From positions 124,001 to 188,000 of the forward strand of contig NZ_SBIV01000005.1 of NCBI RefSeq assembly GCF_004765795.1: DNA of 64,000 nt, written 5' to 3'. The position numbers were made by a program, and so were the translations under genes. The stretch comes from Halorussus marinus (lineage in GTDB: Archaea > Halobacteriota > Halobacteria > Halobacteriales > Haladaptataceae). Below the pieces are notes generated by a model. The model ran no database searches and was not told the origin of the DNA. It was given only the letters and a program-made list of their open reading frames with translations. This document shows, piece after piece, positions 5,087 through 34,929 of the stretch; the stretch's first letter is position 1, and each line of letters starts with the position of its first letter.

Positions 5087-5128
5087 CGTCTCCGGCCGCT
5101 TCGGTCGCCGTCGCGCGGTGACCCGGCG

Positions 5129-5371
5129 CTACCGCTGGTTCTTTCGTCGCTGCTCTTCGGCCTCGGCCTCGTACTTGCGGGCGGTCCGCTCGTCCTGGAG
5201 CTTTCGCTTGTACTCCCAGTAGCCGGCCACGATGACGAGCACCCCGAGGGCCGCGCCTCTGAGCGGCGTCCCGGCCAGCGAGAAGTAGGCGAACGCGCCG
5301 ACGGCGAACAGAATCGAGAGCCCGAGCGTCATCTTCGCCCATCCCTGCCGGGGCACCCGACGGTCGTCCAT
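5129..5371 (-). CDS. Small two-helix membrane protein
   Basis: This 80-residue protein has a polar N-terminus, two adjacent hydrophobic helices (MTLGLSILFAVGAFAYFSLA and LRGAALGVLVIVAGYWEY), and a highly charged tail (KLQDERTARKYEAEAEEQRR) that would form a cytoplasmic helix. The ATG at 5371 is preferred because a longer frame upstream lacks coding character and overlaps the promoter zone of the divergent M81 gene. I do not recognise the family. Function is unknown. Confidence 0.6.
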   Translation of the reverse strand: MDDRRVPRQGWAKMTLGLSILFAVGAFAYFSLAGTPLRGAALGVLVIVAGYWEYKRKLQDERTARKYEAEAEEQRRKNQR

Positions 5372-5449
5372 ACCCCGGGATTCCGGGGCCTCGCGTATCA
5401 AAGTTCGCCTTTCTCCGGACTTATGTCGCCGCCCGTCTAACTGACGTGC

Positions 5450-6982
5450 ATGACCGACGAGACGGTCGTCGTGGGGGAGTTCTCCCACGAGACCAACACG
5501 TTCGCGGCCCGGCCGACCGACCGGGCGGCGTTCGCCGACCGCCGAGAGTACGTCGGCGCGGCGCTACTTGACGCGCTCCGCGGGACCAACACGACGGTCG
5601 GCGGCGTCGTGGACGCCGCCGAGGATCGCGATCTCGACCTCGTGGCGAGCGTCGCGGCGGCCGCCACGCCGGGCGGGATCGTCACCGCCGACGCCTACGA
5701 CTTCTACGTCGAGGAGATCCTCTCGACGGTCCGGTCGAACGCCGCGGACCTCGACGGCGTCGTGCTCTCGCTCCACGGCGCGATGGTCCCCGAGGACGGC
5801 ACCGACGGCGAGGGGCCGCTCCTCTCGGCGGTCCGGGAGGCGGTCGGCCCCGATGTGCCGGTGGTCGCCACCCTCGACCTCCACGCCAACGTCACCGACG
5901 AGATGGTGGCCGCCGCCGACGCGCTGGTCGCGTTCGAGACCTACCCCCACGTCGACACCGCCGAGACCGGCCGGCGCGCGACCGAACTGCTCGTCGACCT
6001 GCTTCGGGACGACCGCGAGCTCTCGATGCGGATCGAGCGCCCCCCGATGTTGCCGTACGGCCCGCTCCAGAACACCCGGTCGGGGCCGATGGCGGAGGTG
6101 ATGGCGACCGCCCGCCGGTTCGAGGGCCGGGACGGCGTCGCGAAGGTCAACGTCTTCCCCGGCTTCCACAAGGCCGACGTGCCCGCGATGGGGTGTTCGG
6201 TCGTGTCGGTCGCCGACGACGCCTCGGCCGCCGAGTGGGCCGCCCGCGACCTCGCGGCCGAGCTCTGGGAGATGCGCGAGGCGTTCGTCGGCGAGTTCCC
6301 CGACCCCCACGACGCGGTCGGACGGGCGCTCCGGAGCGAGGCGGTCGCCGACCCCGAGGCCGGCCCGGTCGTGCTCGCGGACAGCGGCGACAACCCCGGC
6401 GGCGGCGGCACCGGCGACGAGACCGCGATCCTGCGCGAACTCGTCGACCGCGGCGCGACCAACGCCGGCATGGCGCTGCTGGCCGACCCCGAGGCGGTCG
6501 CGGCCTGCCTCGACGCGGGCGTCGGCGAGCGAGTCACCGTCTCGCTCGGGGGCCGGGCCGACGGCTCGTTCACCCCGCCGATCGGCGACGTCGACGGCTA
6601 CGTCGCGGCGATCACCGACGGCGAGTTCCGCAACACCGGCCCGATGGCGACCGGCACCGAGAACCACCTCGGGCGGACCGTGCTGTTCCGGTGTGGCCGC
6701 GAGGACGGCGTCTCGGTCGTCCTGACCGAAAAGCGGATCCAGCCCCTCGACGCCGAAATCTGGCGCCACGTCGGGGTCGCGCCCGAGCGCCTCGACGTGA
6801 TCGCGGTCAAGTCGAACAACCACTACCGGGCGAGCTACGAGCCGTTCGCGAGCGAGATCATCACGGTCAACAGCCCGGGCGTGGCGGCGTTCGACCCCCA
6901 CCAGTACGACTACCGGCGCATCGACCGGCCGGTGTTCCCCCTCGACGAGATGGCCGCCGACGACTACCCCGACTGGTACTGA
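5450..6982 (+). CDS. M81-family metallopeptidase (MlrC/microcystinase C-like)
   Basis: This 510-residue protein starts with VVVGEFSHETNTFAARPT, the family hallmark. The putative metal ligands lie in DLHANVTDEM and FETYPHVDTAETGRRA. A conserved ADSGDNPGGGGTGDET loop near residue 310 precedes the C-terminal MlrC domain, which contains VVLTEKRIQPLD and VVKSNNHYR-like segments. Family members hydrolyse linear peptides or amide-containing small molecules. In most prokaryotes they sit in amino-acid or amide catabolic loci, not toxin degradation. It stands alone between divergent and convergent genes. Confidence 0.85.
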   Translation: MTDETVVVGEFSHETNTFAARPTDRAAFADRREYVGAALLDALRGTNTTVGGVVDAAEDRDLDLVASVAAAATPGGIVTADAYDFYVEEILSTVRSNAADLDGVVLSLHGAMVPEDGTDGEGPLLSAVREAVGPDVPVVATLDLHANVTDEMVAAADALVAFETYPHVDTAETGRRATELLVDLLRDDRELSMRIERPPMLPYGPLQNTRSGPMAEVMATARRFEGRDGVAKVNVFPGFHKADVPAMGCSVVSVADDASAAEWAARDLAAELWEMREAFVGEFPDPHDAVGRALRSEAVADPEAGPVVLADSGDNPGGGGTGDETAILRELVDRGATNAGMALLADPEAVAACLDAGVGERVTVSLGGRADGSFTPPIGDVDGYVAAITDGEFRNTGPMATGTENHLGRTVLFRCGREDGVSVVLTEKRIQPLDAEIWRHVGVAPERLDVIAVKSNNHYRASYEPFASEIITVNSPGVAAFDPHQYDYRRIDRPVFPLDEMAADDYPDWY

Positions 6983-7016: not shown

Positions 7017-7649
7017 CTACCGGTCGGCGGGGAAAAATCGCTCGCGAACCGACTCGGCGACCCCGGTCAAGTGGGCCTGTCCGAAGACCGCGACCAGCAG
7101 GGCGCCGAGCGAGTTGAACATCGCGTCCCGAACCGTATCGTCGAGCCCGTGCTGGGCCAGCGGCATGGTGCGCCCGGTCGCGTCGGCGAGGGCGTCGAGG
7201 CCGAACTCGAACAACTCCCAGGCGACGCCGAACGAAAGCACCACCACGAAGATGTAGACCGAGAAGAACCGCCGCGGGATGTGGATGTCGTCGCTGTGGA
7301 GGTCGATGGCTCTGGCGGTCGTGTACCCGACCGCCGCGAGGAGCGAGGCCGACATCGCGTGGGTGAGGTGGTCCCACCAGCCGATCCGGGCGTAGAAGCC
7401 GGCCGACCCGAGCGTGTGCAACAGCACCGCGGTCGTGATCCAGAGGCCGAGCCACGGGTCCAGCGGGAGGTCGTAGTTGCGCTCGAACGCCGCGGGCAGG
7501 AACGTGACCACCAGGGCGAGGAGGCCGTTGACGATCGGCTTGGGCTGGCCGGTCAGGCCGCCGTAGCCGACGAGTCCGACCAGCACGACCTGCATCCCGC
7601 GAGTGAGTCGCCGCTGGTTCCGGAGCGACGGTCGCGGTAACGGGGTCAC
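7017..7649 (-). CDS. DUF2238/YjdF-like membrane protein
   Basis: This 210-residue protein has about six hydrophobic segments. Two conserved polar patches, GWWDHLTHAMSASLLAAVGY and VAWELFEFGLDALAD, correspond to the DxxxH and WELFE motifs of the YjdF/DUF2238 family. The GTG at 7649 overlaps the stop of the upstream gene (GTGA), which decides the start. Function of the family is not established. Pairing with another membrane protein suggests a two-component membrane unit. Confidence 0.6.
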   Translation of the reverse strand: MTPLPRPSLRNQRRLTRGMQVVLVGLVGYGGLTGQPKPIVNGLLALVVTFLPAAFERNYDLPLDPWLGLWITTAVLLHTLGSAGFYARIGWWDHLTHAMSASLLAAVGYTTARAIDLHSDDIHIPRRFFSVYIFVVVLSFGVAWELFEFGLDALADATGRTMPLAQHGLDDTVRDAMFNSLGALLVAVFGQAHLTGVAESVRERFFPADR

Positions 7650-8284
7650 CGTCTCACCGTCCGTTTGATCGCCCGCCAGAGCCGCCGGTCGCGCCGTCTG
7701 AAGTAGCCGTCGAACAGCACGCCCGCGGCGACGCCGGCCAGCGTGACGTACAGCCACTCGGTCATCAGCGCCTCGTTGTCGGCGAGGTACGCCGTCCCGA
7801 GAAACCGGTCTGCGTTCCACCGGAACACCGTCCAGGCCGCGACCGCCGCCATCGTCGTCATCACCACGAGCACGACGGCGAACCAGTGGGTGACCTCCAG
7901 CGCGGTGAACATGTGGAGTTCGACGATGACGAGCAACGCGAGCGCCGCGAGCGCGAGGTAGGTGGCGAAGGTGCCGACGCTCCCGCCGACGAGCCCGCGG
8001 ACCAGAATCGGCAGCGTCGCGACCACGAGCAGTTCCCACGGGAGCATCACCCGCCAGTCGCGGTACGCGACCGGCGGCAAGAGGACGACGGCCCCGACGA
8101 AGCCGACGAACAGTATCCACTGGTAGTCGACTTCGAGCACGCTGTCGGCGAACACGACCGCGAGGACGCCGACTACCACCCACGCGAGCGCGGCGTTGAT
8201 CGTCCCGTCCCGAAAGAGCCCCTGGAGCGCGTCCTCGAGGTCGGCTCGCGGGCTGTCCTCGGCTTCCCGCCCCCGATCGCTCAT
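7646..8284 (-). CDS. Conserved haloarchaeal membrane protein
   Basis: This 212-residue protein has a charged N-terminus (about 30 residues), then about six hydrophobic helices, and ends in a basic tail (GYFRRRDRRLWRAIKRTVRR). A histidine and glutamate pattern (VIVELHMFTALEVTHW) lies mid-protein. It is the first gene of a coupled pair with the DUF2238-like gene. I recognise no enzymatic motif. The name reflects topology only. Confidence 0.6.
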   Translation of the reverse strand: MSDRGREAEDSPRADLEDALQGLFRDGTINAALAWVVVGVLAVVFADSVLEVDYQWILFVGFVGAVVLLPPVAYRDWRVMLPWELLVVATLPILVRGLVGGSVGTFATYLALAALALLVIVELHMFTALEVTHWFAVVLVVMTTMAAVAAWTVFRWNADRFLGTAYLADNEALMTEWLYVTLAGVAAGVLFDGYFRRRDRRLWRAIKRTVRR

Positions 8285-8527
8285 TGCTTTCGAGTAGAGA
8301 CGGAATCGAGCCATAAGTCCGGCGATGTGCCCACCGCGGCGGCGCCGGACTCGGTCGACGCGCTCGGTCCGGGGATCACATTTTTGCCCGACCCACCATA
8401 CATGTGAGCGTGCGACACGATTCGCCGTCCGAACGACTCTCCCGGCTCCGAGCGAGTCCGCGACGGAGCCGTCCACGGGCGCCGAGACGGCGGGTGATCC
8501 CGAGATGACCGACGACTCGACACCACG

Positions 8528-9811
8528 ATGAGCGACGACACCGACGACGAGGCGCTCTACCCGAACCGCGGCCGAGCGACGCGACCGACCGGGGTGTCCC
8601 GACGACGGCTCCTCTCGGGGTCGGCGGCCGCCGGCGCGGCGGTGACGGCGGGCTGTATGGGCTCTACGACCGACGATTCGGGCGGCGACGGCGACGCCGA
8701 GGGGACGATCTTCGTGTTCAACACAGACGAGAAGACGGTCAGCGTCATCGACGCCGCGACCCACGAGGTGGTCGCGACGCCCCACCTCGGCGCGACCGCA
8801 TCGTTCCCCTCGAACCAGTACGCGCCGGGGCTGACCGACGAGCCGACCGACCCGCTGTGGCTCAACGTCGACCGGGGCGTGCGGGCGATCGAGGTTGGCT
8901 CGCTCTCGTCGGTCGCCGCGGTCGAGACCGGCTCGGGCGCCAACTGGCAGGAGCTGACTCCCGACGGCGCCCACCTCGTGGTGAGCGCCCGGGAGCCGGC
9001 CCACACCCAGTACCGCATCGACGCCGACCGCGAGTCGAGGTCGTTCGGCGAGGTCACCGCCGAGATCGACCGGGCCGACGAGGGCGGAATCGGCGACCGG
9101 GACGGCCCCGGTCCCTGCGACGTGACGATCCACCCCGACGGCGCGTACGCCTACGTCCCCGACATCTTCGGCGACACCCTCTCGGTGATCGACGTCGAGG
9201 CGTTCGAACTCGCCGAACAGGTCGCGGTGTCGCCGACCGACGGCGCCGACGCCGCCCGGCCGTGGATGGGGACCGCGGCCCCCGACGGCGAGACCCTGCT
9301 CGTCGAGCACGACGAAGGTGCGACCGGGACCGAGAGCGTCTGGGACGTGAGCGACCCGGCCGCCCCCGTCGAGCGCGCTCGGCTGACCGCCGACGACGGG
9401 CTCGGTCGCCGGCCGCTCACCAGCGAGATCGGCCCCGACTCGGCGTTCGGCTACGTGTTCACCCCCGGCTCGAACGACGTCACGGTGCTCGACCTCGACG
9501 CCGGGACGGTGGCCGACCGACTCGACGTCGGCGGGTCGGCGTTCGTCGGGACGTGGGGTCCGAGCCGCGAGCGCCTCTACGCCCCCGTCCAGACGGCCGA
9601 CGAGGTGGCGGTGATCGACCACGCCGACCGCGAGGTCGTCGAGACGATCCCGGTCGGCTCCAGGCCCTACGGCGCGACCGCCGCGACGGCCCGGCCCGAC
9701 GGCGACGCCGCGGCGAACGTCCGGGGTACGATGGCGTCGCTCGGGATCGACCTCGACGACGGCGGGACGACCTACTGCATCGGTAACTGCGCGTGTGGCC
9801 ACCGGCTGTGA
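8528..9811 (+). CDS. Tat lipoprotein with YncE-like beta-propeller
   Basis: This 427-residue secreted protein has a twin-arginine motif (SRRRLLSG, residues 24-31) and a lipobox ending at Cys43 (AVTAGC). An acidic Thr/Ser linker follows, then a series of propeller blades with repeated patterns such as TIFVFNTDEKTVSVIDAATH, DTLSVIDVEAFELAE and NDVTVLDLDAGTVADRL. These are typical of YVTN/YncE surface propellers, and the protein would be anchored outside the membrane. The last residues, YCIGNCACGHRL, hold three closely spaced cysteines, which is unusual and might bind metal or form a disulfide. Ligand or partner unknown. Confidence 0.75.
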   Translation: MSDDTDDEALYPNRGRATRPTGVSRRRLLSGSAAAGAAVTAGCMGSTTDDSGGDGDAEGTIFVFNTDEKTVSVIDAATHEVVATPHLGATASFPSNQYAPGLTDEPTDPLWLNVDRGVRAIEVGSLSSVAAVETGSGANWQELTPDGAHLVVSAREPAHTQYRIDADRESRSFGEVTAEIDRADEGGIGDRDGPGPCDVTIHPDGAYAYVPDIFGDTLSVIDVEAFELAEQVAVSPTDGADAARPWMGTAAPDGETLLVEHDEGATGTESVWDVSDPAAPVERARLTADDGLGRRPLTSEIGPDSAFGYVFTPGSNDVTVLDLDAGTVADRLDVGGSAFVGTWGPSRERLYAPVQTADEVAVIDHADREVVETIPVGSRPYGATAATARPDGDAAANVRGTMASLGIDLDDGGTTYCIGNCACGHRL

Positions 9812-13965: not shown

Positions 13966-15591
13966 ATGTCCTCTGATTCGCCTCGGAACGGGACGGATCC
14001 GACTATCTCGAAGTCGGAGCTGCTCGCGGAGCTCCGGCGTCTGGCCGACGAGCTCGATACGTCGCCGAGCGTCGATCAGATGGACGAACACGGCGCGTAC
14101 TCCTCGCGGACGTACCGCAAGCGCTTCGACTCCTGGAACGAGGCGAAAGCCGAGGCGGGCATCGAGCCGACCCGGACCGTCCGGTACTCGAAAGCGGAGT
14201 TGCTCGACCGACTGTGCGCGTTCGGCGACGAGATCGACGCCACGCCGTCGAAGGCCCAGATGCGAGAATACGGCCCTCACGCGCCGTCGACGTACGCCTC
14301 CCGGTTCGGATCGTGGACCGCGGCGCTCGAAGCCGCGGGCTTCGAACCCGAGACGGCCGCCACCGGCATCTCGGTGGAGGACCTCTTGGCCGACCTCCGA
14401 CGGGTCGCCGACCGACTCGACCGCCGGCCCACCTCCGAGGAGTACGACGAGCACGGTCGGTTCAGCGACTCGACGTACTTCCGGCGGTTCGACTCGTGGG
14501 ACGACGCGCTCGAACGGGCCGGCGTCGCCGATCGGTACGAGTCGGCGCCGTCGACCCAGCACGCGACCGCGGAACTCCTCGAAGAGCTCTCGCGGCTCGG
14601 CGAAGTGCTTGGCCGGGCCCCGACCCACACCGAGATGGAACGGCTCGGCGAGTACAGTCCCGGGACCTATCGCCGACGCTTCGGGTCGTGGCGCGACGCC
14701 CTCGCGGAGGCCGGCTTCGATCCGGACGCCGGCGAGCGAGCCACGGCGAAACGCCGGATCTCCGAGGAGCTGTTGCTCGCGGAGATTCGTCGGCTCGCCG
14801 ACGAGAACGGCCGGCCGCCGACCTATCAGGAGGTCGAGTCCGACGGACGCTACGCCGGCGCGACGTACCTCGATCGGTTCGGAACGTGGAACGACGCGCT
14901 CGAGGCCGCCGGCTACGACCGTCGGACCTCCCGGCGCGAGAAGATCCCGACGCGCGAGCTGGTCCGAGAGCTCCGGGCGCTCGCGGCCGAGGTCGGCTCG
15001 CGGCCGTACCGCAAGACCATGGACGACCGGGGACCCTACTCCGGGATGACCTACTACAACCGCTTCGGGTCGTGGCAGAGCGCCCTCGACGCGGCAGGTC
15101 TCGTCGTCGACGACGGCGTAGCCGTCCTGGTCGCGCGGTGTGACGCGTGTGCGACCCGCCTGCGCGAGCCGGTGGCCGACGTCTCGGCGGCTGACGGCGT
15201 CTTCTGTGATTCGACGTGTTACACCGGCTGGCGACAGCCGGTCGTCCGCGTCGACGCCGACGTGTTCGACGGGACCGACCCCGACGCCCTCGATCGACTG
15301 GCGGCGGCGCTTCGCGACGACGTCCTCGTCTCGGAGGTCCTGTACGCGCTCGACCACGCGCTGTCGTTCTTCGAGAGCGGGTTCGAAGCCGCCGAGTTCC
15401 TGGACCACCGGATCGCGGCCGACGGCGACGCGGTCGCGATCACCCGGTTCGGCGAGACGCCGCCCGAAGAGATTCGATTCGAGCGCTCGACGCTCCGGGC
15501 GCTCGCCGACCGGATCGAGGCGGCTCCCGAAAGCGAGCCCCACGATGCCACACCGGCCGATCCGACGTTGGGTCAGTCCGAGTCCGCTTGA
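13966..15591 (+). CDS. Multi-repeat 'homing endonuclease-associated repeat' protein with zinc finger
   Basis: This 541-residue protein contains six tandem copies, each about 50 residues, of the HNH-associated repeat (residues ~17-66, 76-126, 138-187, 202-252, 268-317, 329-379). Each copy follows ELLxELRRLADxLxxxPT, then a GxYSxxTYxxRFGSWxxALxxAG ending. A zinc-finger-like C392-x2-C395 ... C414-x3-C418 follows, then an acidic C-terminal domain of about 120 residues without recognised fold. No HNH, LAGLIDADG or GIY-YIG catalytic motif is present. The repeat domains are thought to bind DNA, so it is more likely a sequence-specific DNA-binding protein than a nuclease. Neighbours give no further clue beyond an accessory setting. 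Confidence 0.75.
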   Translation: MSSDSPRNGTDPTISKSELLAELRRLADELDTSPSVDQMDEHGAYSSRTYRKRFDSWNEAKAEAGIEPTRTVRYSKAELLDRLCAFGDEIDATPSKAQMREYGPHAPSTYASRFGSWTAALEAAGFEPETAATGISVEDLLADLRRVADRLDRRPTSEEYDEHGRFSDSTYFRRFDSWDDALERAGVADRYESAPSTQHATAELLEELSRLGEVLGRAPTHTEMERLGEYSPGTYRRRFGSWRDALAEAGFDPDAGERATAKRRISEELLLAEIRRLADENGRPPTYQEVESDGRYAGATYLDRFGTWNDALEAAGYDRRTSRREKIPTRELVRELRALAAEVGSRPYRKTMDDRGPYSGMTYYNRFGSWQSALDAAGLVVDDGVAVLVARCDACATRLREPVADVSAADGVFCDSTCYTGWRQPVVRVDADVFDGTDPDALDRLAAALRDDVLVSEVLYALDHALSFFESGFEAAEFLDHRIAADGDAVAITRFGETPPEEIRFERSTLRALADRIEAAPESEPHDATPADPTLGQSESA

Positions 15592-21911: not shown

Positions 21912-23711
21912 TCAGAAGTTCTCCGGGTTGGGCGTCTCCCCTTCCGGCCAGGCCTCCAGCTCGGCGCCCGGCGGGTAGTGGAGCCTGCCCTGGTCGTCCC
22001 AGCCCCAGCCCGCGTCCGAGAGGGCCTGGCGGGCGGCCTCGACGTTGCGAGTCTCCTCGCCCACTTCGGTTAGGTACTGTTCGTCGTACCAGGGGTGTTG
22101 CTGGGAGTTGAAGGTGCAGTAGGTGACCTCTTCGGACTCGCCGAATGCGTAGGTCTCGTTGAGGCCCTGGCGGTCGACCGCGTACGACAGCGCCTGACGG
22201 AACTCTCGGAACATCCCGGGCGCGAACGACATCTGGGGCATCATCCCGAACGGGAGGAACGCCGCCCCGTTGACGATCTGGGCTGTGTCGCCCATGCTGT
22301 CGGCGATCTGGCGGCCCGCGTCCGGAGTCAGCGTCACCGCGATGCTCAGTTCGCCGTTCTCGAACGCTCGGCGGACCGCGGAGACGCTGTCGTAGATCTG
22401 CATGACGATCGGCGTCTCCACCTGGAACTGGGGATTCCCGTCGTGGGGCTCCAGCGCGATGTTCTCCTGATTGTTGTACGTCGAGATCCGGTACGGGCCG
22501 GCCCCGATCATCGGATCCTCGAAGTCGGTCGGGTTCTCCTCGATGCCCGCCTCGACGTAGGGATCGCGCGGTAGCACGCCGAACGTCGGCAGCTGGGCCG
22601 TCACCAGCGTCGGGGCCGGGTCCGGCGTGACGAACCGTGCCGTGCTGTCGTCGACGGCCTCGACGGTCAGCTCCTCGGGCAGCGCCGTCCACTGGTAGTT
22701 GCCCGCGTGGTACTGTTCGCTCAGGAACTCGTAGGTCCACTTCACGTCCCCGGCCGTCACCGGGTCGCCGTTGTGGAAGGTCGCGTCACGGAGGTTGAAC
22801 GTCACCTCCGTCCCGTCGTCGGACACCTCCCAGTCCTCGGCCAGCACGGGCACCCGCTCGTAGTCGGAGTTGTACAGCATCAGCGGCGAGTGGGTCAGTT
22901 GCGTGTACAGCCCCAGCGAGTCGGTGTCGCCGACCGTCGGGTAGAAGCTGCTGGTGAGGAACTCGCCGGGCAGGTTCGCCAGGATGGTGTCGGTCCCCGA
23001 CTGGGTCTGGGCCCCGCTCTCGACCAGCGCCGACCAGTTGACGGCCGAGAGCCCGGCGCCGCCGGCTTCGATCGGCTGGACCATGTCGGTGTTGAGCGCG
23101 GCGGTCGTCGGCCGTTCGATCGTCGGCACGAACGGCATGTCCTCCGAGTAGATGCTCATCGCCTCGCCGACGACCTGCCGGCGCTCCTCCGGGACCCCGA
23201 TCGTGGCCTGCTGGTCCACCAGCTCCGAGAACTCCGCGTTGGCGTAGTTCGAGGGGTTGTACTCACCGTTCGCCCCCGCCCGGTCGATGCTGTACGACTG
23301 CAGGAGGTTGTTGGGATCGAGCCGGCCCGGGTCCGGGCCGTGGCTGTTGACCGCGACGTGAAAGTCGCGCACGTCGTCGCCGACCGCGGTGATCCCTTGG
23401 GCCGTGGTCATCGGCTGGGTCTCGATCTGGATACCGAGGTCGGAGGCCACCGACTGGATGTTCGAGATGGTCTCCTCGAACAGGACCGTCGGCGGCCCCT
23501 GGTCGGACCAGTACTGGAACGTTAGCGTCGGTACCCGTTCGCCTAGTTCGCCGTCATCCGCCGCCGTCCCGGTCTCCTGACCGCCCCCCTCGGTCGTCGT
23601 CTCCTGGCGACCGCTGCCGCTACAGCCCGCCAGCCCCGCGGCCGAGGCGGCGCCGATCGCCTGCAGGACTCTCCGTCTGTCGACACTCTCCCGTTTGCCA
23701 TCTGTTGGCAT
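21912..23711 (-). CDS. ABC transporter substrate-binding lipoprotein (SBP family 5), circularly permuted
   Basis: This 599-residue lipoprotein has the signal DRRRVLQAIGAASAAGLAGC with lipidated Cys30. The two halves of an oligopeptide/nickel-type binding protein appear in swapped order. Residues ~60-230 look like the usual C-terminal part (NIQSVASDLGIQIETQ, then GPDPGRLDPNNLLQSY, PSNYANAEFSELVDQQ, EDMPFVPTIERP). Residues ~240-575 hold what is normally N-terminal (VLAEDWEVSDDGTEVTFNLR, FHNGDPVTAGDVKWTYEFL, GAGPYRI, FRQALSYAVDRQGL, RQALSDAGWGWDDQGRL). The protein then stops where a normal member would continue into its C-lobe. It is the last gene of the ABC operon, separated by 255 AT-rich bases, and may have its own promoter. 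Peptides or similar solutes are likely ligands. Confidence 0.85.
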   Translation of the reverse strand: MPTDGKRESVDRRRVLQAIGAASAAGLAGCSGSGRQETTTEGGGQETGTAADDGELGERVPTLTFQYWSDQGPPTVLFEETISNIQSVASDLGIQIETQPMTTAQGITAVGDDVRDFHVAVNSHGPDPGRLDPNNLLQSYSIDRAGANGEYNPSNYANAEFSELVDQQATIGVPEERRQVVGEAMSIYSEDMPFVPTIERPTTAALNTDMVQPIEAGGAGLSAVNWSALVESGAQTQSGTDTILANLPGEFLTSSFYPTVGDTDSLGLYTQLTHSPLMLYNSDYERVPVLAEDWEVSDDGTEVTFNLRDATFHNGDPVTAGDVKWTYEFLSEQYHAGNYQWTALPEELTVEAVDDSTARFVTPDPAPTLVTAQLPTFGVLPRDPYVEAGIEENPTDFEDPMIGAGPYRISTYNNQENIALEPHDGNPQFQVETPIVMQIYDSVSAVRRAFENGELSIAVTLTPDAGRQIADSMGDTAQIVNGAAFLPFGMMPQMSFAPGMFREFRQALSYAVDRQGLNETYAFGESEEVTYCTFNSQQHPWYDEQYLTEVGEETRNVEAARQALSDAGWGWDDQGRLHYPPGAELEAWPEGETPNPENF

Positions 23712-23966: not shown

Positions 23967-24968
23967 CTACTCGCCGTCGCTGCCGCTGACCGAGACCCGC
24001 GGGTCGAGCACCCCGTAGAGCAGGTCGACGAGGAAGTTCCCGAGGATCACCCAGACGGCGGCGACGAGGAACACGAACTGGATGACCGGGAAGTCCCGCG
24101 CGAGGACCGAACTGACCAGAAGCGAGCCGATTCCGGGCCAGTTGAACACGATCTCGATCAGGACGAGCCCGCTGATCGAGGCCGCGAGCGAGATGGGGTA
24201 GAGCGTGACGACCGGGAGGGAGGCGTGGCGAATGATCTTGCGCAGCAGCGTCGACTCCGGCAGGCCCTTCAATCGGTGGTAGTGGAGAAACTCCTGGTCG
24301 CTGACCTCGACGACGCTGTTGCGCATGATCAGGGCGGGGTACTGCATGAAGTACAGCATCACCGTCGCGAACGGGAGCGCGTAGTGCTTCCAGAACTCCG
24401 GCAGGAGGAACCGGCGCCAGTAGGGCTGGTCCTGGATCATGATCGACGTCGGCGTCGAGAGCATCCCCGACGTGGGGAAGATCCCCAGCGTCGAGGAGAA
24501 CACCGCGATCAGGATGATACCCAGGAAGAAGTCGGGGATCGAGTGGAACGCCGAGACGGTGATGATCCCCGATTTCTCGAGGTAGCCGCCGCGGCGCCGG
24601 CCCATGATCGCGCCGAACAGCCCGCCGATGATGTACGTCGCGGTGATCGCAGGCGCGACAAGCACGAACGAGTTGAGGATCCGGGGCGCGACCAGATCCC
24701 AGACCGGCTCCCCGTAGCGAAACGACTGGCCGACGTCGGCCGTCAGGAGGTTCACGATGTACCGGACGTACTGGACGTGAAGCGGCGCGGCGAGTCCCCA
24801 CTTGCGTCGCAGGGCCTCGATCTGCTGGGGATCCATCCCTTGCTGGATCAAAAGCGAGGTGTAATCGCCCGGCATCAGCCGGAAGAACAGGAACAGCGCG
24901 GAGGCGACGAGGAAGATCAGCACCGCCGTCACCGCCGTCCGCCGGGCGAAGTACCGCAGGCGGCTCAC
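23967..24968 (-). CDS. ABC transporter permease, DppB/OppB type
   Basis: This 333-residue membrane protein has the classic N-terminus YFARRTAVTAVLIFLVASAL, then LFFRLMPGDY. Six transmembrane helices follow, with an EAA-like loop before SLPVVTLYPISLAASISGLV and the IEIVFNWPGIGSLLVSSV motif of DppB proteins. The GTG start at 24968 overlaps the stop of the ATPase gene (GTGA). It forms the channel with the DppC-type partner encoded first in the operon. Confidence 0.92.
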   Translation of the reverse strand: MSRLRYFARRTAVTAVLIFLVASALFLFFRLMPGDYTSLLIQQGMDPQQIEALRRKWGLAAPLHVQYVRYIVNLLTADVGQSFRYGEPVWDLVAPRILNSFVLVAPAITATYIIGGLFGAIMGRRRGGYLEKSGIITVSAFHSIPDFFLGIILIAVFSSTLGIFPTSGMLSTPTSIMIQDQPYWRRFLLPEFWKHYALPFATVMLYFMQYPALIMRNSVVEVSDQEFLHYHRLKGLPESTLLRKIIRHASLPVVTLYPISLAASISGLVLIEIVFNWPGIGSLLVSSVLARDFPVIQFVFLVAAVWVILGNFLVDLLYGVLDPRVSVSGSDGE

Positions 24969-26026
24969 GGGCGCTCACCCCCGTCGCTCGCGGCCGGCTT
25001 GGGTTCGGCGCCCGCCCGCTCCTCGTGGTCGTAGTAGAGGTGACAGGCGACCTCGCGGTCCCCGTCGCCGTCCGGCGCGACGTCGAGGGGCGTCTCGTCG
25101 CAGACGTCCATCCGTTCGGGACACCGGTTCTTGAACCGGCACCCCTCCGGCATGTCTATCGGGTCACCGGGCTCGCCGCCGATGGTCGCCTGCTCGCGGT
25201 CGTAGTGCGGGTCGGGAATCGGAATAGATCGGATCAGCGCCTGCGTGTAGGGGTGTTTCGGGTCGGCGAGCAGCGCCCTGGTCGGGGCCTTCTCGACGAT
25301 CCGCCCGAGGTACATCACGTTGATGTGGTCGCAGATGTACGACACCGTCGACAGATCGTGAGAAATGTACACCATCGACACCCCGAACTCGTCTGTCAGC
25401 TCGTTCAACAGGTTCAGGATCTCGGCCTGGGTCGACACGTCGAGCATCGACGCGGGCTCGTCGGCGAGGATCACGTCGGGCTCGGTGATCAGCGCCCGCG
25501 CGATGGCGACCCGCTGTTTCTCCCCGCCCGAGAGCTGGTTCGGGAACTGCTGGATGTACTGGCTCGCGGGCGTCAGTCCGACGCTCTCTAGCATCTCCTC
25601 GATGTCGGTCCGGTCGTAGTCGATGCCGTGGATCTCCAGGGGCTCTGCCAGCGTGCGGCGCACGCTGAACTTCGGGTCGAGCGAGTTGAACGGATCCTGG
25701 AAGACGATCTGGACGTGCCGGCGGAACTCCTTCCACTCGTCTTTGGTGAACTCCGAGGTCGGTCGGCCGTGGAACCGCATCTCGCCGCCGGTCGGATCGT
25801 AGAGCCCGATGATCGTCCGCAGCAGCGTCGTCTTCCCACAGCCGCTCTCGCCGATCACGCCCTGGACCTGATTTTCCGCCAGCGTCAGGTTCAGGTCGTC
25901 GACCGCCCGCACCAGCTTGGGCCCCTCGCCGACGAGCCGATTTCTGATGGTCTCGGTGATCCCCGAGGTCGTGTCGAAGTGCTTTTCGAGCGACCGCAGT
26001 TCGAGGACCGGCGCCCCGTCGCTCAC
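24965..26026 (-). CDS. ABC transporter ATP-binding protein, OppF/DppF type
   Basis: This 353-residue ATPase has the Walker A VIGESGCGKTTLLRTIIGLY, the Q-loop IVFQDPFNSLDPKF, the signature LSGGEKQRVAIARAL, and Walker B DVILADEPASMLDVS. A C-terminal oligopeptide-transporter extension with clustered cysteines (MPEGCRFKNRCPERMDVC) may hold an Fe-S or metal site as in other family members. The GTG start at 26026 overlaps the stop of the preceding ATPase gene, which decides the start. It pairs with the OppD-type ATPase. Confidence 0.92.
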   Translation of the reverse strand: MSDGAPVLELRSLEKHFDTTSGITETIRNRLVGEGPKLVRAVDDLNLTLAENQVQGVIGESGCGKTTLLRTIIGLYDPTGGEMRFHGRPTSEFTKDEWKEFRRHVQIVFQDPFNSLDPKFSVRRTLAEPLEIHGIDYDRTDIEEMLESVGLTPASQYIQQFPNQLSGGEKQRVAIARALITEPDVILADEPASMLDVSTQAEILNLLNELTDEFGVSMVYISHDLSTVSYICDHINVMYLGRIVEKAPTRALLADPKHPYTQALIRSIPIPDPHYDREQATIGGEPGDPIDMPEGCRFKNRCPERMDVCDETPLDVAPDGDGDREVACHLYYDHEERAGAEPKPAASDGGERP

Positions 26027-27063
26027 TGTCCTCCCTCCAGAATGCTCGTCGACTCGGTCGAGCGTTCGAGGTGGTTCGCGGCGAGCTCCGACATCTCGCC
26101 GGCTCGGACGCACCACGCGAGGTGGTCGTCGTCGCCGGCGACCGGGGTGGCCGGCGGCGCGCCCTCCCGGCAGGCGGGCTCGGCCCACGGACACCGATCG
26201 GCGAACGTACAGAAGTCAACTTCGTCGCGCAGTTGGGGCGGGTGGCCGTCGATCACGGCCAGCTCTCGGTCCGGGAAGCGCACGTCGGGAAACGCGTTCT
26301 GGAGCAAGATCGCGTACGGGTGGCGCGGCCGGTCGAACACGTCGTCGACGGTGCCGGTCTCGGCGATCTGGCCCCCGTGCATCACCGCCATCGAGTCGCA
26401 GTTCTCGAACACCAGCGAGATGTCGTGGGTGATCAACAGCATGCTGACGTCCCAGTCGTCTTTCAGGCCGTTGATATAGTCCATGATCTGATCCTGCATG
26501 ATCACGTCGAGCGCGGTCGTCGGCTCGTCGGCGATGATCAGACTCGGCTGCAGAAACAGCGCGAACGCGATGATCGCCCGCTGTTGCATCCCGCCGGAGA
26601 ACTGGTGGGGGTAGTCGCTTATCCGGGACTCCGAAAGCCCGACCACGTCGAACAGCTCCCGGAGGCGGTCGAGCGCCGCCGGCCTCGAGAGGTCGGTGTG
26701 GTACTTCGCCATCTCGACGGCCTGCTCGCTCAGTTTCATCACGGGATCGAGACTGTTCATCGACGACTGGGGGATCACCGAGACCTCCTTCCAGCGGACG
26801 TTCTCGTTGAACTCCGACTCGGAGTAGTCCTGAATCTGCTCGCCCTTGAACCGGATCTCCCCGGAGACGACTTCCCCGTTGTCGTCGAGGCCGCCGACGA
26901 TCGAGTCGGCGATGGTGCTCTTGCCGCACCCGCTCTCGCCGACCAGCCCGAAGTAGTCGCCCTCGTCGATCGCGAACGAGGCGCCGTTGACCGCGCGGAC
27001 GTCGTCGCCGTCGGTCCGGTAGCGGATGTCGACGTCGTCGAATTCGAGTATCGGTTCGGCCAT
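26023..27063 (-). CDS. ABC transporter ATP-binding protein, OppD/DppD type
   Basis: This 346-residue ATPase has Walker A GLVGESGCGKSTIADSIVGG, signature FSGGMQQRAIIAFAL, and Walker B SLIIADEPTTALDVI. The C-terminal region has the family cysteine cluster (DFCTFADRCPWAEPAC). The ATG at 27063 lies 1 base after the stop of the DppC-type gene, so the genes are one operon. It energises uptake together with the OppF-type subunit. Confidence 0.92.
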   Translation of the reverse strand: MAEPILEFDDVDIRYRTDGDDVRAVNGASFAIDEGDYFGLVGESGCGKSTIADSIVGGLDDNGEVVSGEIRFKGEQIQDYSESEFNENVRWKEVSVIPQSSMNSLDPVMKLSEQAVEMAKYHTDLSRPAALDRLRELFDVVGLSESRISDYPHQFSGGMQQRAIIAFALFLQPSLIIADEPTTALDVIMQDQIMDYINGLKDDWDVSMLLITHDISLVFENCDSMAVMHGGQIAETGTVDDVFDRPRHPYAILLQNAFPDVRFPDRELAVIDGHPPQLRDEVDFCTFADRCPWAEPACREGAPPATPVAGDDDHLAWCVRAGEMSELAANHLERSTESTSILEGGQ

Positions 27064-27064
27064 C

Positions 27065-27967
27065 TCAGACCACCACCTCGTCGTCGCCGCCGCCCTCGTA
27101 GCCCCGCCCGAGCAGGTACAGCGACAGGACGGTCAGCGCGATCATGATTCCCGGCGGGAACGACCACCACCACGCGTCCGCGACCCGCCCGGCCTGATTG
27201 GCGTTGCGGATCATGATCCCCCACGTCGGCGTGAACGGGTCGGTGACGCCGATGAACGACAGGCCCGCCTGCTCTAGGATCGCCAACCCGACGCCCATCG
27301 CGAAAAACAGCCCGGCCATGTTGGCGATGTTCGGCAGGATGTGCTTGCGCATGATCCACGGCGTACTCGCGCCGGAGGCCCGCGCGGCCATGATGTATGG
27401 CCGTTGTTTGATCTGAAGCACCTGCGAGCGTATCACCCGAGCGATGAACCGCCAGAGCACGAGCCCGAGGATCGCGATCGTGGTGTAAAAGCCCGCGCCG
27501 AAGAACGTGATGAGGACGATCGCGAACGGGATGAACGGGATACCGTACATGAAGTCGACCAGCCGCATGAGGAGGCTCTCGGTCTTCCCCCCGACGTAGC
27601 CGGCGGTCATTCCCACCGACAGCCCGACCGTCATCATCAGCCCCCCCGCGAGAAGCCCGGTGATCAGAGTCGTCCGGGCCCCGATCAGAAGCCGCGAGAG
27701 CACGTCTTCTCCCCGATCGTTGGTCCCCAGCGGGTGTTCGAGCGACGGCGGCTCGTACCGCATCAGCTCCCCGCTCGCGGTCGTCTGTTGCTCGTTGTAC
27801 GGGTACGGCGCGATCATCGGTCCGACCACTCCGAGGATCAGAACCACTAGCAACACCCCGAACGCGAACCGGGTGATGCGCTCGGAGAGGAGATTTCGGA
27901 GCGTCCGCCGAGCGATGATCGCGAAGTCGCTGTCCCGGTACGCTCGGACCCGCTCCGCGACGCTCAT
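27065..27967 (-). CDS. ABC transporter permease, DppC/OppC type
   Basis: This 300-residue membrane protein is the first gene of the transporter operon. It shows the DppC N-terminal pattern with SLEHPLGTNDRGEDVLSRLL and IGARTTLITGLLAGGLMMTV. The EAA loop lies near YIMAARASGASTPWIMRKHI, followed by LPNIANMAGLFFAMGVGLAI. ATG 27967 is chosen over an upstream GTG since MSVAERVRAYRDSDF is a plausible N-terminus. The order permease-ATPase-ATPase-permease-binding protein is unusual in placing the binding protein last. Confidence 0.92.
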   Translation of the reverse strand: MSVAERVRAYRDSDFAIIARRTLRNLLSERITRFAFGVLLVVLILGVVGPMIAPYPYNEQQTTASGELMRYEPPSLEHPLGTNDRGEDVLSRLLIGARTTLITGLLAGGLMMTVGLSVGMTAGYVGGKTESLLMRLVDFMYGIPFIPFAIVLITFFGAGFYTTIAILGLVLWRFIARVIRSQVLQIKQRPYIMAARASGASTPWIMRKHILPNIANMAGLFFAMGVGLAILEQAGLSFIGVTDPFTPTWGIMIRNANQAGRVADAWWWSFPPGIMIALTVLSLYLLGRGYEGGGDDEVVV

Positions 27968-28123
27968 CGGTACCCCCACGGCCCCACGGCGCAGTAATCA
28001 CACTCTCCGTCGACGGTCATGATTTGCCATGTGTAAACACACCGCAACTGGTAAAAAGATTGTGCTGGGGCCGTCCCCGTCCGGATTCCCCACGGGAGTC
28101 GGTCCCGATCCGCGCCCGGGGGT

Positions 28124-28795
28124 TCATGCGCGGTGGCGCTCCAGCTCCGCCTCGACCGTGGCGGGCCCGTGAGCGCCGTAGAGCCGCGCCTCGACCGCCC
28201 CGTCGCGCACGAAAAGCAGTGCCGGTCCCGCGGTGAGGTCGTACTCCCGGTCGAGAAACTCCCAGTCGGCCGGCCCGTACACGGCGAACGGCATCACGCC
28301 CCGGGGCTCCTCGAAAACCGCTTCGAGGTCCCGCCGGGCCAGTTCACAGCTCTCCGAGTCGTCCAGCCAGACGTAGACCACCGCCGGCGAGTACACCCGC
28401 GTCAGGTGCGACAGATGAGTCGCCGGCACCGGGACGAACGCCGCCGGGACCCCGTCGGTCCTGACGTCGTAGTCGTCGCCCCGAAACAGCCACAGCGGGG
28501 GGAGCAACTGGAGCCACTCGTCGTCGGCCGCCGGCTCCAGGCGGTCGGCGAGCGCGCACAGCTCGGCCACCGTCCGTGGATCGGTCGCGCCGAGCGCCGC
28601 GAGCGGCTCGACCACCGTCTCCTCGTCGACCCGGCGGCGAACCGCGGGGAGGAGGTCGTCGGCGTCCCGACCCGCGAACTCGGCGGTGTAATCTGTGACA
28701 GCCTCCTCGAACTCCCCGGTCGTCGTCGCGGCTTCGCCGTCGACGGTCAGTACGCCGGCGTCGAATAGCACGCTATTTGATGACATCTCACGCAT
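28124..28795 (-). CDS. Hypothetical protein with thioredoxin-like C-terminal half
   Basis: This 223-residue acidic protein is helical in its first half. The second half (SPAVVYVWLDDSESCELARR, then MPFAVYGPADWEFLDREYDL and AGPALLFVRDGAVEARLYGA) has the beta-alpha pattern of thioredoxin-fold proteins, but there is no CxxC; only one cysteine follows the first strand (SESC). The start could be the ATG at 28795 or 28786. It is divergent from the aldo/keto reductase. Function unknown. Confidence 0.6.
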   Translation of the reverse strand: MREMSSNSVLFDAGVLTVDGEAATTTGEFEEAVTDYTAEFAGRDADDLLPAVRRRVDEETVVEPLAALGATDPRTVAELCALADRLEPAADDEWLQLLPPLWLFRGDDYDVRTDGVPAAFVPVPATHLSHLTRVYSPAVVYVWLDDSESCELARRDLEAVFEEPRGVMPFAVYGPADWEFLDREYDLTAGPALLFVRDGAVEARLYGAHGPATVEAELERHRA

Positions 28796-28970: not shown

Positions 28971-29789
28971 ATGACCGCGCGCACACAGATCCCGGCGCTC
29001 GGGCTGGGCACGTACCGGAACACCGACCCCGAGCGGTGCCGGGACAACGTCCGAACCGCGCTGGACGTGGGATACAGGCACGTCGACACCGCAGAGGCGT
29101 ACGGCAACGAGGAGGCGGTCGGCGAAGGAGTCGCGGCGGCCGACGTCGACCGCGAGGACGTGTTCCTCGCGACGAAAGTGCTCCACCCGAAGTTCGCCGA
29201 CGGGTACGCAACCGACGACGTCCTCGACAGCGCGCGAGACTGCCTCGACCGGCTCGGCCTCGAGCGGGTCGACCTGCTCTACGGCGTCCACTGGCCGGGC
29301 GGCGACTACGACTCCGAGGCGACGTTCGAGGCGTGCGCGGAGCTCCGCGAGGAGGGCGTCGTCGACCACATCGGGGTCTGCAACCTCACCCCCGAGCTGT
29401 TGGACGAGGCCCGGGCGGCCTCCGAGGCGCCGATCCAGGCGTTGCAGGTCGAGATGCATCCGCTCCTACAGCAAGAACGGCTCCGGGAGTACTGCGAGAC
29501 CCACGACATCACGCTCGTGGCGTACGCCCCGCTCGGCTACGGCGCGGTGTTCGAGAATCGGGTGATCGGGGAGATCGCCGAGGAGCGCGGCGTCAGCGAG
29601 GCGCGGGTGAGCCTGGCGTGGCTCCGCGAGAAGGGCGTCGCGACGATCCCGAAGGCGAGCACCGACGAGCACATTCGCGACAACTGGTCGTCCCTGGAGT
29701 TCGACCTCGACGAGCCCGAGATCGCGGCGATCGACGGCATCGAGCAGGAAGACCGCCAGTACGATCCGGACTACGCGCCGGCGTGGTGA
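28971..29789 (+). CDS. Aldo/keto reductase
   Basis: This 272-residue TIM-barrel NADPH-dependent reductase begins QIPALGLGTYRN. It has the catalytic Asp in YRHVDTAEAYGNEEAVGEG, Tyr in that same AEAYGN motif, Lys in VFLATKVLH, and His in LLYGVHWPGG. The C-terminal cofactor motif GVATIPKASTDEHIRDN is present. It reduces aldehydes or ketones of sugar or keto-acid type. It fits a catabolic context with the downstream HpcH-type aldolase and FAH hydrolase, although those are separately transcribed. Confidence 0.9.
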   Translation: MTARTQIPALGLGTYRNTDPERCRDNVRTALDVGYRHVDTAEAYGNEEAVGEGVAAADVDREDVFLATKVLHPKFADGYATDDVLDSARDCLDRLGLERVDLLYGVHWPGGDYDSEATFEACAELREEGVVDHIGVCNLTPELLDEARAASEAPIQALQVEMHPLLQQERLREYCETHDITLVAYAPLGYGAVFENRVIGEIAEERGVSEARVSLAWLREKGVATIPKASTDEHIRDNWSSLEFDLDEPEIAAIDGIEQEDRQYDPDYAPAW

Positions 29790-29838: not shown

Positions 29839-30627
29839 TCACTCCGAGTCGGCGCGCAGCGAGTCGAGCCGCGACCCCAGCACGACCCGCGCCGACGCGA
29901 CCTCGTCGCCGAGTCGGAGCAGTCGGTACCCCCGATCGATCGCGGCCTCGGCGTCCGCCGCGTCGTCGGTGACCCACCCGAGGGGGACGCCGGCGTCGAG
30001 ACACGCCTCCCGTATCTCCGCGATCGCCCGCCGAACATCGGGATGATCCTTCTCGAATGGACGACCGATCGAAACCGAGAGGTCCGCGGGCCCGACGAAC
30101 GCGAAGCCGAGCTCCGGCACCGCTGCGATGGCGTCGAGGTTCTCGACCGCGGTCCGTGTCTCGATCATACAGCCCACCGACACCGCCTCGTCGTGGGCGG
30201 ACGGATCGATCGACGAGGCGTCGCCCCACCCGCTGTCGCGTCCGGCGCCGGCGCCGTAACTGCCCGGACGACCGTCGTAGGCGAACCGGGCGGCCTCGAT
30301 CGCCTGCCTGATCTCGTCGGCCGACTCTACGCGCGGAATCAGGAGCGTCTTGACGCCGGTGTCGAGCACCTTCCGGACGGCCGCGGGATCGCCGGACGGG
30401 AGCCGTACCACGAGGTCGATCTCGGCCGCGTCGGCCGCCCGCGCCAGTCGGTCGAGGACTCGGCTGTCGAACGGGCTCGCCCCGGCGTGTTCGAGGTCGA
30501 TCCACGCGAAGTCCAGTCCCATCTCGCCGTACACTTCGACGACCGACGGCGACGTCGTCGCGGCCCGGGCGCCGAGGATCGGCCCCTGTTCGTCGAGCAG
30601 GTGACTCACGCGACGCTGTTTGCCCAT
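29839..30627 (-). CDS. HpcH/HpaI-family aldolase
   Basis: This 262-residue class II pyruvate aldolase contains GLDFAWIDLEHAGASPFDSR, the DTGVKTLLIPRVESADEIRQ metal-site region, the CMIETRTAVENLDAIAAV segment with the metal-binding Glu, and FVGPADLSVSIGRP. These match 2,4-dihydroxyhept-2-enedioate/2-keto-3-deoxy-acid aldolases that cleave to pyruvate (or a 2-oxoacid) plus an aldehyde. The ATG 30627 is preferred over the upstream GTG 30636. Confidence 0.88.
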   Translation of the reverse strand: MGKQRRVSHLLDEQGPILGARAATTSPSVVEVYGEMGLDFAWIDLEHAGASPFDSRVLDRLARAADAAEIDLVVRLPSGDPAAVRKVLDTGVKTLLIPRVESADEIRQAIEAARFAYDGRPGSYGAGAGRDSGWGDASSIDPSAHDEAVSVGCMIETRTAVENLDAIAAVPELGFAFVGPADLSVSIGRPFEKDHPDVRRAIAEIREACLDAGVPLGWVTDDAADAEAAIDRGYRLLRLGDEVASARVVLGSRLDSLRADSE

Positions 30628-30850
30628 AGGTGTCACACATCACTGAGAGTATTCAGTATTCGGGACGGACCGGACGATCACACGCTCGGTCCGTGAGGCC
30701 GCTCGCGGCCGGCGGGAGCTGACTGCTTTGCTCGTCCGTCTCGGTCTGAAATCTGCGAGAGAATTACACTCACCGGCGCGTCAGTCGCTGACCGCCACGG
30801 TTTCCGGAGCAAAAATCTTTTTACGTATTCCCGCACCACTTCATGTCGCT

Positions 30851-31624
30851 ATGCAACGAGTTCGATTTCGCGACCCGGCCGGCTCCGTGCGGGTCGGCGA
30901 GTGGACCGACGAGGGGGTCGCCTTCGCCACCCGGCAGTTCGACCTCGACGAGGTGACGGTACTGTCGCCGGTCGAGCCGAGCAAGATCGTCTGCGTCGGG
31001 CTGAACTACGCCGACCACGCCGAGGAGACCGACTCCGAGATTCCGGAACGCCCGCTGTTGTTCCTGAAAGCGCCGAACACGCTCGCGGCCCACGGTGACA
31101 CCATCGCGCTCCCGGACGACAAAGAGCGCATCGACCACGAGGCCGAACTGGGGGTCGTCATCGGCGAGCAGTGTCGGAACGTCCCGGCCGACCGGGCCGA
31201 GGAGGTCATCGCGGGCTACACCTGCGTCAACGACCTCTCGAACCGGGACGACCAGCGCCAAGAGCAAAACTGGGTTCGGGGGAAGTCGTTCGACAACGCC
31301 GCCCCGATCGGGCCGGTGGTCGCGTCGCCTGACCGCGTCCCCGAGGACGCCTCGATCAGGCTCCGGAAGAACGGCGAGATCCAACAAGAGTCGACCATCG
31401 ACAACCTCATCTTCTCGGTCCCGGAACTGATCGAGGAGATCACCACGCTGGTGACCTTAGAGGAGGGCGACGTGATCGCGACCGGGACGACCTCGGGCGT
31501 GAGTCCGATCAGCGACGGCGATTCTGTCGAGATCGAGATCGAGGGCGTGGGGACGCTCCGCAACGAGTTCGTCGCCGAGGAGTTCTCCGGGGAGGTCGAA
31601 CACGACTTCATGCCGGACCACTGA
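30851..31624 (+). CDS. Fumarylacetoacetate hydrolase-family protein
   Basis: This 257-residue protein has the FAH C-terminal fold. Motifs include IVCVGLNYADHAEETDSEIP, LFLKAPNTLAAHGDTIALP, the metal-binding IDHEAELGVVIG, and WVRGKSFDNAAPIGPVV. Catalysis is usually hydrolysis, decarboxylation or isomerisation of beta-diketo or acylpyruvate acids. It is preceded by a TATA-like stretch (TTTTTACG) about 30 bases before the ATG. Together with the divergent HpcH/HpaI aldolase it suggests degradation of an aromatic- or sugar-derived keto acid. Confidence 0.88.
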   Translation: MQRVRFRDPAGSVRVGEWTDEGVAFATRQFDLDEVTVLSPVEPSKIVCVGLNYADHAEETDSEIPERPLLFLKAPNTLAAHGDTIALPDDKERIDHEAELGVVIGEQCRNVPADRAEEVIAGYTCVNDLSNRDDQRQEQNWVRGKSFDNAAPIGPVVASPDRVPEDASIRLRKNGEIQQESTIDNLIFSVPELIEEITTLVTLEEGDVIATGTTSGVSPISDGDSVEIEIEGVGTLRNEFVAEEFSGEVEHDFMPDH

Positions 31625-33729: not shown

Positions 33730-34929
33730 ATGGCAGACGAAGTCAACGAACGACGATCTACCACGCGGCGTAACTACATGAAGTATGGCGGCGCTCTCGT
33801 TGGTAGCGGGTTGCTTGCCGGTTGTACCGGTGGAGACGATTCCCAAAACACCGTAACAGAATCGGATTCCACGCCGACTGCGACGGAGACGACGACCGCC
33901 ACACCGACCGAGACAACCACGGAAGACAGTTCGTACTCCGTGACGATAGAACCTGTTGGCGACGTCACCTTCGAGTCTGTTCCCCAAACGTGGGTCGCAG
34001 AAAATGCCAGTTGGGGGGACATGGGTGTTTCACTCGGATTGGAGAAGCCGAGTGCAATCGTCCTCACAGGCGAGTACCGGACGTGGGCATACGAGGACAT
34101 TCCGGGGCTCTCCACTGGCAAGGAGGATATGATTTCGCTCTGGCAAGACGGGATTTCCAAGGAGACCTTGTTAGAAATTGACGCCGACGTACACTTTATC
34201 GACCCGAACTATATGACCAACCTCATCCCCAACTGGAAGCGCGCGGATGTCACGGAGATGGCCGAGCGTCTCTCTCCGTTCTGTGGCAACACGAGCTTCT
34301 CGACGTATTCGTGGCACGAGGACTACCCGTACTACTCGCTGTACGAGGCCACCGAGAAGGTCGCACAGGTATTCCAGCGAATGGACCGTTTCGAGGCGCT
34401 TCAGGCGCTCCACGACGAGACCGTTTCGAGCATACAGGAACGACTGCCACCCGAGAGCGAGCGCCCGGCAATCGGGCTTCTCTCGCCAGCATCGACGCAA
34501 CCGGAAAAGTACTACCCCTATCGGCTCGGTGAGACGACTGCGTACAAACACTGGCACGACCTCGGTGTAAGCGATGCGTTTGAAGGCTCAGACATCCAGA
34601 GCTTTACGTCCGATCGCGGCACTATCGATTACGAGACGCTGCTGGACGTCGATCCCGAGATCATACTGTTCTACACCGACGAGCACTGGACGCGCTCAGA
34701 GTTCCGCGAGACGTACCTCACGTTCCTCCAAGACCACGACGTAGCGAGCCAACTACGCGCAGTTCAGAACGGTGAGGTTTATCCGGCAGGCGGGATGTAC
34801 CAAGGCCCGATTATCAACCTCGCAAAGACCGAACGTGCCGCGAAGCAGTTGTTCCCCGACGTTTTCGGCCAAGACGAGCAACTGTACAGTCGCCAACGAA
34901 TCGCCGATATTCGGGACGGAGACGTGTGA
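33730..34929 (+). CDS. Iron-siderophore/B12-type ABC substrate-binding lipoprotein
   Basis: This 399-residue lipoprotein has a signal (RRNYMKYGGALVGSGLLAGC, Cys32) and a Thr-rich linker of ~35 residues. A helical-backbone periplasmic-binding fold (FecB/BtuF type, PF01497-like) follows, with YETLLDVDPEIILFYTDEHW as the best motif, and a final NLAKTERAAKQLFPDVFGQ typical for this family. No permease or ATPase gene adjoins, so partners must be encoded elsewhere. Codon use and GC are clearly lower than neighbours, suggesting transfer. The perfect palindrome at its promoter suggests iron control. Confidence 0.82.
   Translation: MADEVNERRSTTRRNYMKYGGALVGSGLLAGCTGGDDSQNTVTESDSTPTATETTTATPTETTTEDSSYSVTIEPVGDVTFESVPQTWVAENASWGDMGVSLGLEKPSAIVLTGEYRTWAYEDIPGLSTGKEDMISLWQDGISKETLLEIDADVHFIDPNYMTNLIPNWKRADVTEMAERLSPFCGNTSFSTYSWHEDYPYYSLYEATEKVAQVFQRMDRFEALQALHDETVSSIQERLPPESERPAIGLLSPASTQPEKYYPYRLGETTAYKHWHDLGVSDAFEGSDIQSFTSDRGTIDYETLLDVDPEIILFYTDEHWTRSEFRETYLTFLQDHDVASQLRAVQNGEVYPAGGMYQGPIINLAKTERAAKQLFPDVFGQDEQLYSRQRIADIRDGDV

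Follow-up and report, generated by a model that had tools for sequence, protein, structure and literature searches.

The gene at 21912..23711 on the reverse strand of the window (i.e., the whole 64,000-nucleotide stretch of Halorussus marinus DNA that was analysed) was confirmed to encode a circularly permuted solute-binding lipoprotein of the DppA/OppA type, belonging to solute-binding protein (SBP) family 5. Chains of this family usually carry a front part followed by an end part. Both fold parts were present in the 599-aa protein (HMMs and solved-structure profiles), but in reversed order, and the protein was therefore filed as a permuted variant rather than as an ordinary family-5 member. 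The permuted arrangement is old, common to a group of 40 or more sequences, and not a local accident. We consider it highly probable that this DppA/OppA-fold chain serves the adjacent DppB-C-D-F-type importer as its substrate-binding lipoprotein; the likeliest reading is an otherwise ordinary receptor whose lipid anchor has shifted to the other lobe. Firmly established are the order of the parts, their completeness and conservation, the operon, and a confident model of an Archaeoglobus protein with the same cut.

Order of the parts in the permuted chain

21912..23711 (-): circularly permuted SBP family 5 lipoprotein, 599 aa plus stop (ORF, Pfam, HMMs, solved-structure profiles)
23622..23711 (-): signal, residues 1–30, with twin-arginine motif DRRRVLQ and lipobox LAGC, Cys30 (sequence)
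23535..23621 (-): low-complexity acidic/Gly/Thr tether, residues 31–59 (sequence)
23016..23534 (-): end part relocated to the front, residues 60–232, equivalent to DppA ~357–487 and OppA ~369–494 (profile E 8.9e-14 and 1.9e-17, respectively)
22920..23015 (-): new joint, residues 233–264, old C-terminus onto old N-terminus (HMM and structure alignment)
21972..22919 (-): front part, residues 265–580, equivalent to DppA ~1–345 and holding the Pfam SBP_bac_5 match (Pfam, profiles, structure alignment)
21912..21971 (-): new C-terminal tail behind the AGWGWDDQGRLHYP motif, including the stop (sequence)

Family membership was clear from an SBP_bac_5 score of 171.8 bits against a cut-off of 32.4 (E 3e-50). 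The match spanned only residues 287–576 (profile 3–285 of 368), so that the last fifth of the profile was absent behind it. The original prediction had read a permuted family-5 order from motifs that were indeed all there, in the order given, and a collinear SBP_bac_5 match over residues 60–599, which would have refuted it, was not found. It erred in letting the protein stop where the C-lobe begins, as the chain in fact ends inside the C-lobe, shortly past a conserved helix ending AGW.

A profile of residues 60–232 and relatives matched solved OppA 369–494 (E 1.9e-17) and solved DppA 357–487 (E 8.9e-14); when a single sequence was used, the second match was only weak (4.6 bits), the front segment of this protein being divergent. 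With a whole-family profile, the rear part fell on AppA 17–345 and DppA 22–339, and the front part on AppA 360–496. Moreover, an HMM trained on six normal-order family-5 proteins, all from the Halorussus marinus genome, read 18 out of 18 permuted relatives as signal, end part, front part. Chance is excluded as the cause of the reversed order. Neither NCBIfam nor Pfam held a permuted-order model matching the protein, and none of the top 60 matches was a solved structure across the new joint.

Among the 16 permuted relatives compared for the signal, R12, R13, and A28 were invariant and G29 nearly so, while the Pfam TAT_signal match of the 599-aa protein was weak (E 0.45). The LHYP-type ending of the new C-terminal tail was present in relatives too.

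The close group comprised nine loci, i.e., the gene's own entry and eight in other genomes, with 69–90% identity and the order kept over the full length, and the original suggestion to look for this order in related haloarchaea was thereby borne out. Across four ortholog pairs, dN/dS was ~0.07–0.45 in both parts (a fifth pair, L009, was left out due to saturated dS), and judged from these substitution rates both parts are under purifying selection. Of the ten SBP_bac_5 genes in the Halorussus marinus genome itself, seven have the normal order and three are permuted (the target and two paralogues). One such paralogue is a single 585-codon frame with Pfam profile positions 289–353 ahead of 6–286, and a permuted SBP of the same genome (L076) lies within a complete Dpp operon.

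Since the genome is a draft of 37 contigs, a recent non-functional rearrangement or an artefact of assembly or gene calling might be suspected. However, the eight close relatives share the order, as do dozens of more distant sequences, annotated plasmid records among them, and the gene is under purifying selection within an intact operon, which leaves this suspicion scarcely credible. An assembly artefact in particular is ruled out by the relatives with the same order, and the sequencing rearrangement that was to be checked for was not encountered.

Operon, predicted fold and proposed function

Next to the permuted SBP gene lie two permease genes and two genes for ATPases carrying oligo_HPY tails, which is what defines an importer operon of the Opp/Dpp type; they are listed here with the conserved upstream gene and the linked catabolic genes:

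23967..24968 (-): DppB-type permease (Pfam BPD_transp_1; order kept in 7 relatives)
24965..26026 (-): DppF-type ATPase (Pfam ABC_tran and oligo_HPY)
26023..27063 (-): DppD-type ATPase (Pfam ABC_tran and oligo_HPY)
27065..27979 (-): DppC-type permease (Pfam BPD_transp_1 and OppC_N)
28124..28795 (-): conserved upstream operon gene, 223 aa (no Pfam match; thioredoxin-like by eye only)
28971-29789 (+): aldo/keto reductase (Pfam)
29839-30636 (-): HpcH/HpaI aldolase (Pfam)
30728-31624 (+): FAA hydrolase (Pfam)

The longest DppF-type ORF extends to 26194, and the start near 26026 was inferred from the Halorussus halophilus homologue. The DppB, DppC, DppD, and DppF genes had been thought complete, which agrees with their Pfam matches and with the operon order kept in relatives: the seven loci read with flanks carried a ~220-aa gene, DppC, DppD, DppF, DppB, and the SBP in that order, and an annotated Halorussus halophilus plasmid showed the same gene order at its permuted SBP operon. 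The 223-aa gene stays adjacent to DppC in 7 relatives. In relatives, the importer repeatedly has an amidase, an FAA hydrolase, an HpcH/HpaI aldolase, and an aldo/keto reductase in its neighbourhood; from these linked catabolic genes, a small amide or carboxylate compound may be weakly inferred as the substrate. Near the cluster lies another binding protein of unrelated type (Peripla_BP_2 by Pfam, 33730-34929, +), and a protein with six HNH_repeat (homing-endonuclease-associated) repeats was noted at 13966-15591 (+; Pfam E 5e-125).

The target was modelled from an alignment of window and related-locus sequences only, in which each normal-order relative was split into two fragments, and the model reached a pLDDT of 70.9 and a pTM of 0.74, with part of the front segment at a pLDDT of 35–60. 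Model residues 181–529 (protein 232–580) aligned with DppA 1–345 or OppA 1–361 (Z ~19–20). The superposition on DppA/OppA proposed earlier was thus obtained for residues 232–580 only, since Foldseek and VIA-align keep the chain order and leave the moved end part outside their alignments. The permuted protein of Archaeoglobus, which shares this cut, yielded a pLDDT of 95.7 and a pTM of 0.92, and its model residues 166–491 aligned with DppA 1–344.

By the published domain assignment of OppA (domain III ~271–486), the cut falls inside lobe II, and the lipid anchor would sit on that lobe together with the two new termini. The two original termini of family-5 proteins lie close together in lobe I, so that joining them should be cheap, and opening the chain elsewhere, at a surface loop, should be tolerated. 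In the proposed receptor, the original termini, both in lobe I, would be linked by ~30 residues, and the new termini would open in a lobe II loop near DppA residue 345–357. The folded protein would probably form the usual two-lobed clamp, be exported by the Tat route, be anchored via Cys30, and deliver its solute to the permease, the single clear difference from an ordinary receptor being that the anchor would hang from lobe II. The export route, binding, docking, and substrate are inferred only. The folded and probably functional product foreseen in the original prediction finds support here, albeit without expression, binding, or transport data.

The permuted chains might instead pair as a domain-swapped dimer, in which a chain's lobe II is completed by the front segment of its partner. 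Permuted chains can swap, and the joint is long enough for this in the haloarchaeal members. In the Archaeoglobus protein, however, the joint has only a few residues and the single-chain model closes the fold confidently (pTM 0.92; monomer models only), and we regard swapping as very improbable.

Recurrence of the permutation in family 5

It is very likely that the family-5 fold is permutation-prone and has undergone at least about seven independent permutations across archaea and bacteria, the Archaeoglobi included, that these opened the chain at about nine loop positions, and that some lineages later shifted their break once more. Junction-spanning matches to the type with the same cut as the target were present in at least 33 of 53 haloarchaeal genomes (phylum sample). 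The haloarchaeal members group with a Chloroflexota sequence (L171), a grouping that was not rejected (AU p 0.75; FastTree support 0.83). The same cut was found in Ketogulonicigenium, Roseomonas, and Neorhizobium (domain order verified), and the permuted SBPs of the first two lie in complete annotated importer operons. M28 peptidase genes adjoin the alphaproteobacterial permuted SBP operons L213 and L214, which would fit peptide uptake.

For sequences outside the haloarchaeal group, a 543-position HMM built from 65 normal-order proteins served as the reference for domain order. This gave nine classes of break (last position before the stop/first after the signal), i.e., ~112/117, 149/160, 241/245, 274/304, 284/285, 306/314, 380/385, 431/435, and 459/465, found in Archaeoglobus, Bathyarchaeota, Desulfurococcales and other Thermoproteota, and Chloroflexota. 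Mapped on the Archaeoglobus model (pLDDT 95.7), all nine contain or touch a loop; seven could be placed within a few residues, and the wide 149 and 274 classes are uncertain by 15–30 positions. The order was permuted at 16 of the 20 Chloroflexota and 24 of the 25 Thermoproteota loci examined, ratios that are not frequencies because these loci were chosen as the best junction matches, and 74 proteins were classed as normal by the same rule in the same tree.

On a 55-row tree, the ten states required 14 changes (minimum possible 9), and well-supported branches forced at least seven changes of the normal/permuted label. Such counts cannot separate gains from reversions; furthermore, some groups were named after the first tree had been seen, and normal-order sampling was narrow. 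The differing breaks could alternatively be later re-cuts of one ancient permutation, ancestral to all permuted family-5 proteins, and two permuted clades do mix break positions (241 with 459, and 284 with 380), so re-cutting may occur. Nevertheless, a single clade of all permuted rows was rejected (AU p 1.3e-47), as was a clade of haloarchaeal and Archaeoglobus rows (AU p 5e-6), the latter meaning that the 380 break arose more than once. Moreover, the Archaeoglobus permuted genes nest among normal-order ones with 85–86% identity, and a single origin would require repeated returns to the normal order. A single origin is therefore very unlikely, and repeated permutation remains our preferred explanation.

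Two further arrangements were observed. In Desulfurococcales (L112, L120, L118, L125, and relatives), breaks 241 and 459 are found together in a single permuted clade whose members have the joint and an inserted stretch in common, which gives the impression of a shifted break. In an Anaerolineae MAG (L097), two adjacent genes (4234-6753, + and 7106-9532, +) each carry another binding-protein-like region, SBP_bac_3-like by eye only, ahead of the family-5 SBP; the first gene is permuted with a break at ~152/163, and the second has the normal order.

Within the Archaeoglobi, the permuted genes of three Archaeoglobus loci (L063-L065) share 85–86% protein identity with normal-order genes of sister Archaeoglobi. 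At the DNA level, the halves of permuted and normal genes match reciprocally at ~80%, and only ~9 bases of the normal gene, at the cut, have no counterpart. A complete importer operon stands beside the permuted gene, and none beside the normal-order genes in the stretches read; the flanks of permuted and normal genes differ and revealed no trace of the permutation event. Such pairs constitute a natural experiment on how chain order and anchor position bear on folding, export, and docking. The permuted SBP of Archaeoglobus sp. JdFR-37 (L062:5733-7496, -) has no lipobox; instead, its new C-terminus bears a PGF-CTERM motif, matched just above the Pfam cut-off.

As to origin, the route would be tandem duplication, fusion, and then trimming. 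Under permutation by duplication, every fold element should be retained and the breakpoints should fall in loops, and both predictions are met by the permuted family-5 proteins. A duplicated intermediate was not found in the haloarchaeal lineage; a fused double gene from another archaeon (L066:4310-7387, +), with one in-frame 1026-aa ORF of two normal-order SBP_bac_5 units in tandem, shows only that such a form can exist. The tandem duplication and trimming initially suggested for the target is plausible and has not been demonstrated for its own lineage.

Comparison with known binding proteins

DppA, OppA, and NikA of E. coli (family 5/cluster C) resemble the target in fold parts, Pfam family, permease and ATPase types, signal, and lipobox. 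In contrast to these proteins, the target has the last third first, and its termini lie inside lobe II rather than lobe I. Natural circular permutation is usually regarded as rare; here, a large family of transporter receptors shows it repeatedly. The permuted order explains why such genes give only a truncated SBP_bac_5 match in profile searches, and split matches of this kind should not be taken as truncation or mis-assembly.

No earlier report of permuted family-5 proteins was found in the open literature searched (subscription papers and preprints lay outside the search). Within that literature, the nearest precedent and the sole published permuted SBP found is of another fold class, i.e., TpMglB-2 (Tp0684) of Treponema pallidum, a permuted tethered ABC solute-binding lipoprotein with a crystal structure (PMC4990184). 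Its authors proposed it and its relatives as 'Type Ic / cluster Bc' and raised the question whether tethering favours such a topology (PMC4990184). Assignment of the target to this TpMglB-2 type is ruled out by the full family-5 profile match in both of its parts. The two proteins are alike in being natural circular permutations of a tethered ABC binding lipoprotein, whereas TpMglB-2 has a Type I/cluster B sugar-binding fold, with N-lobe strands moved to the end and a fourth hinge crossing (PMC4990184).
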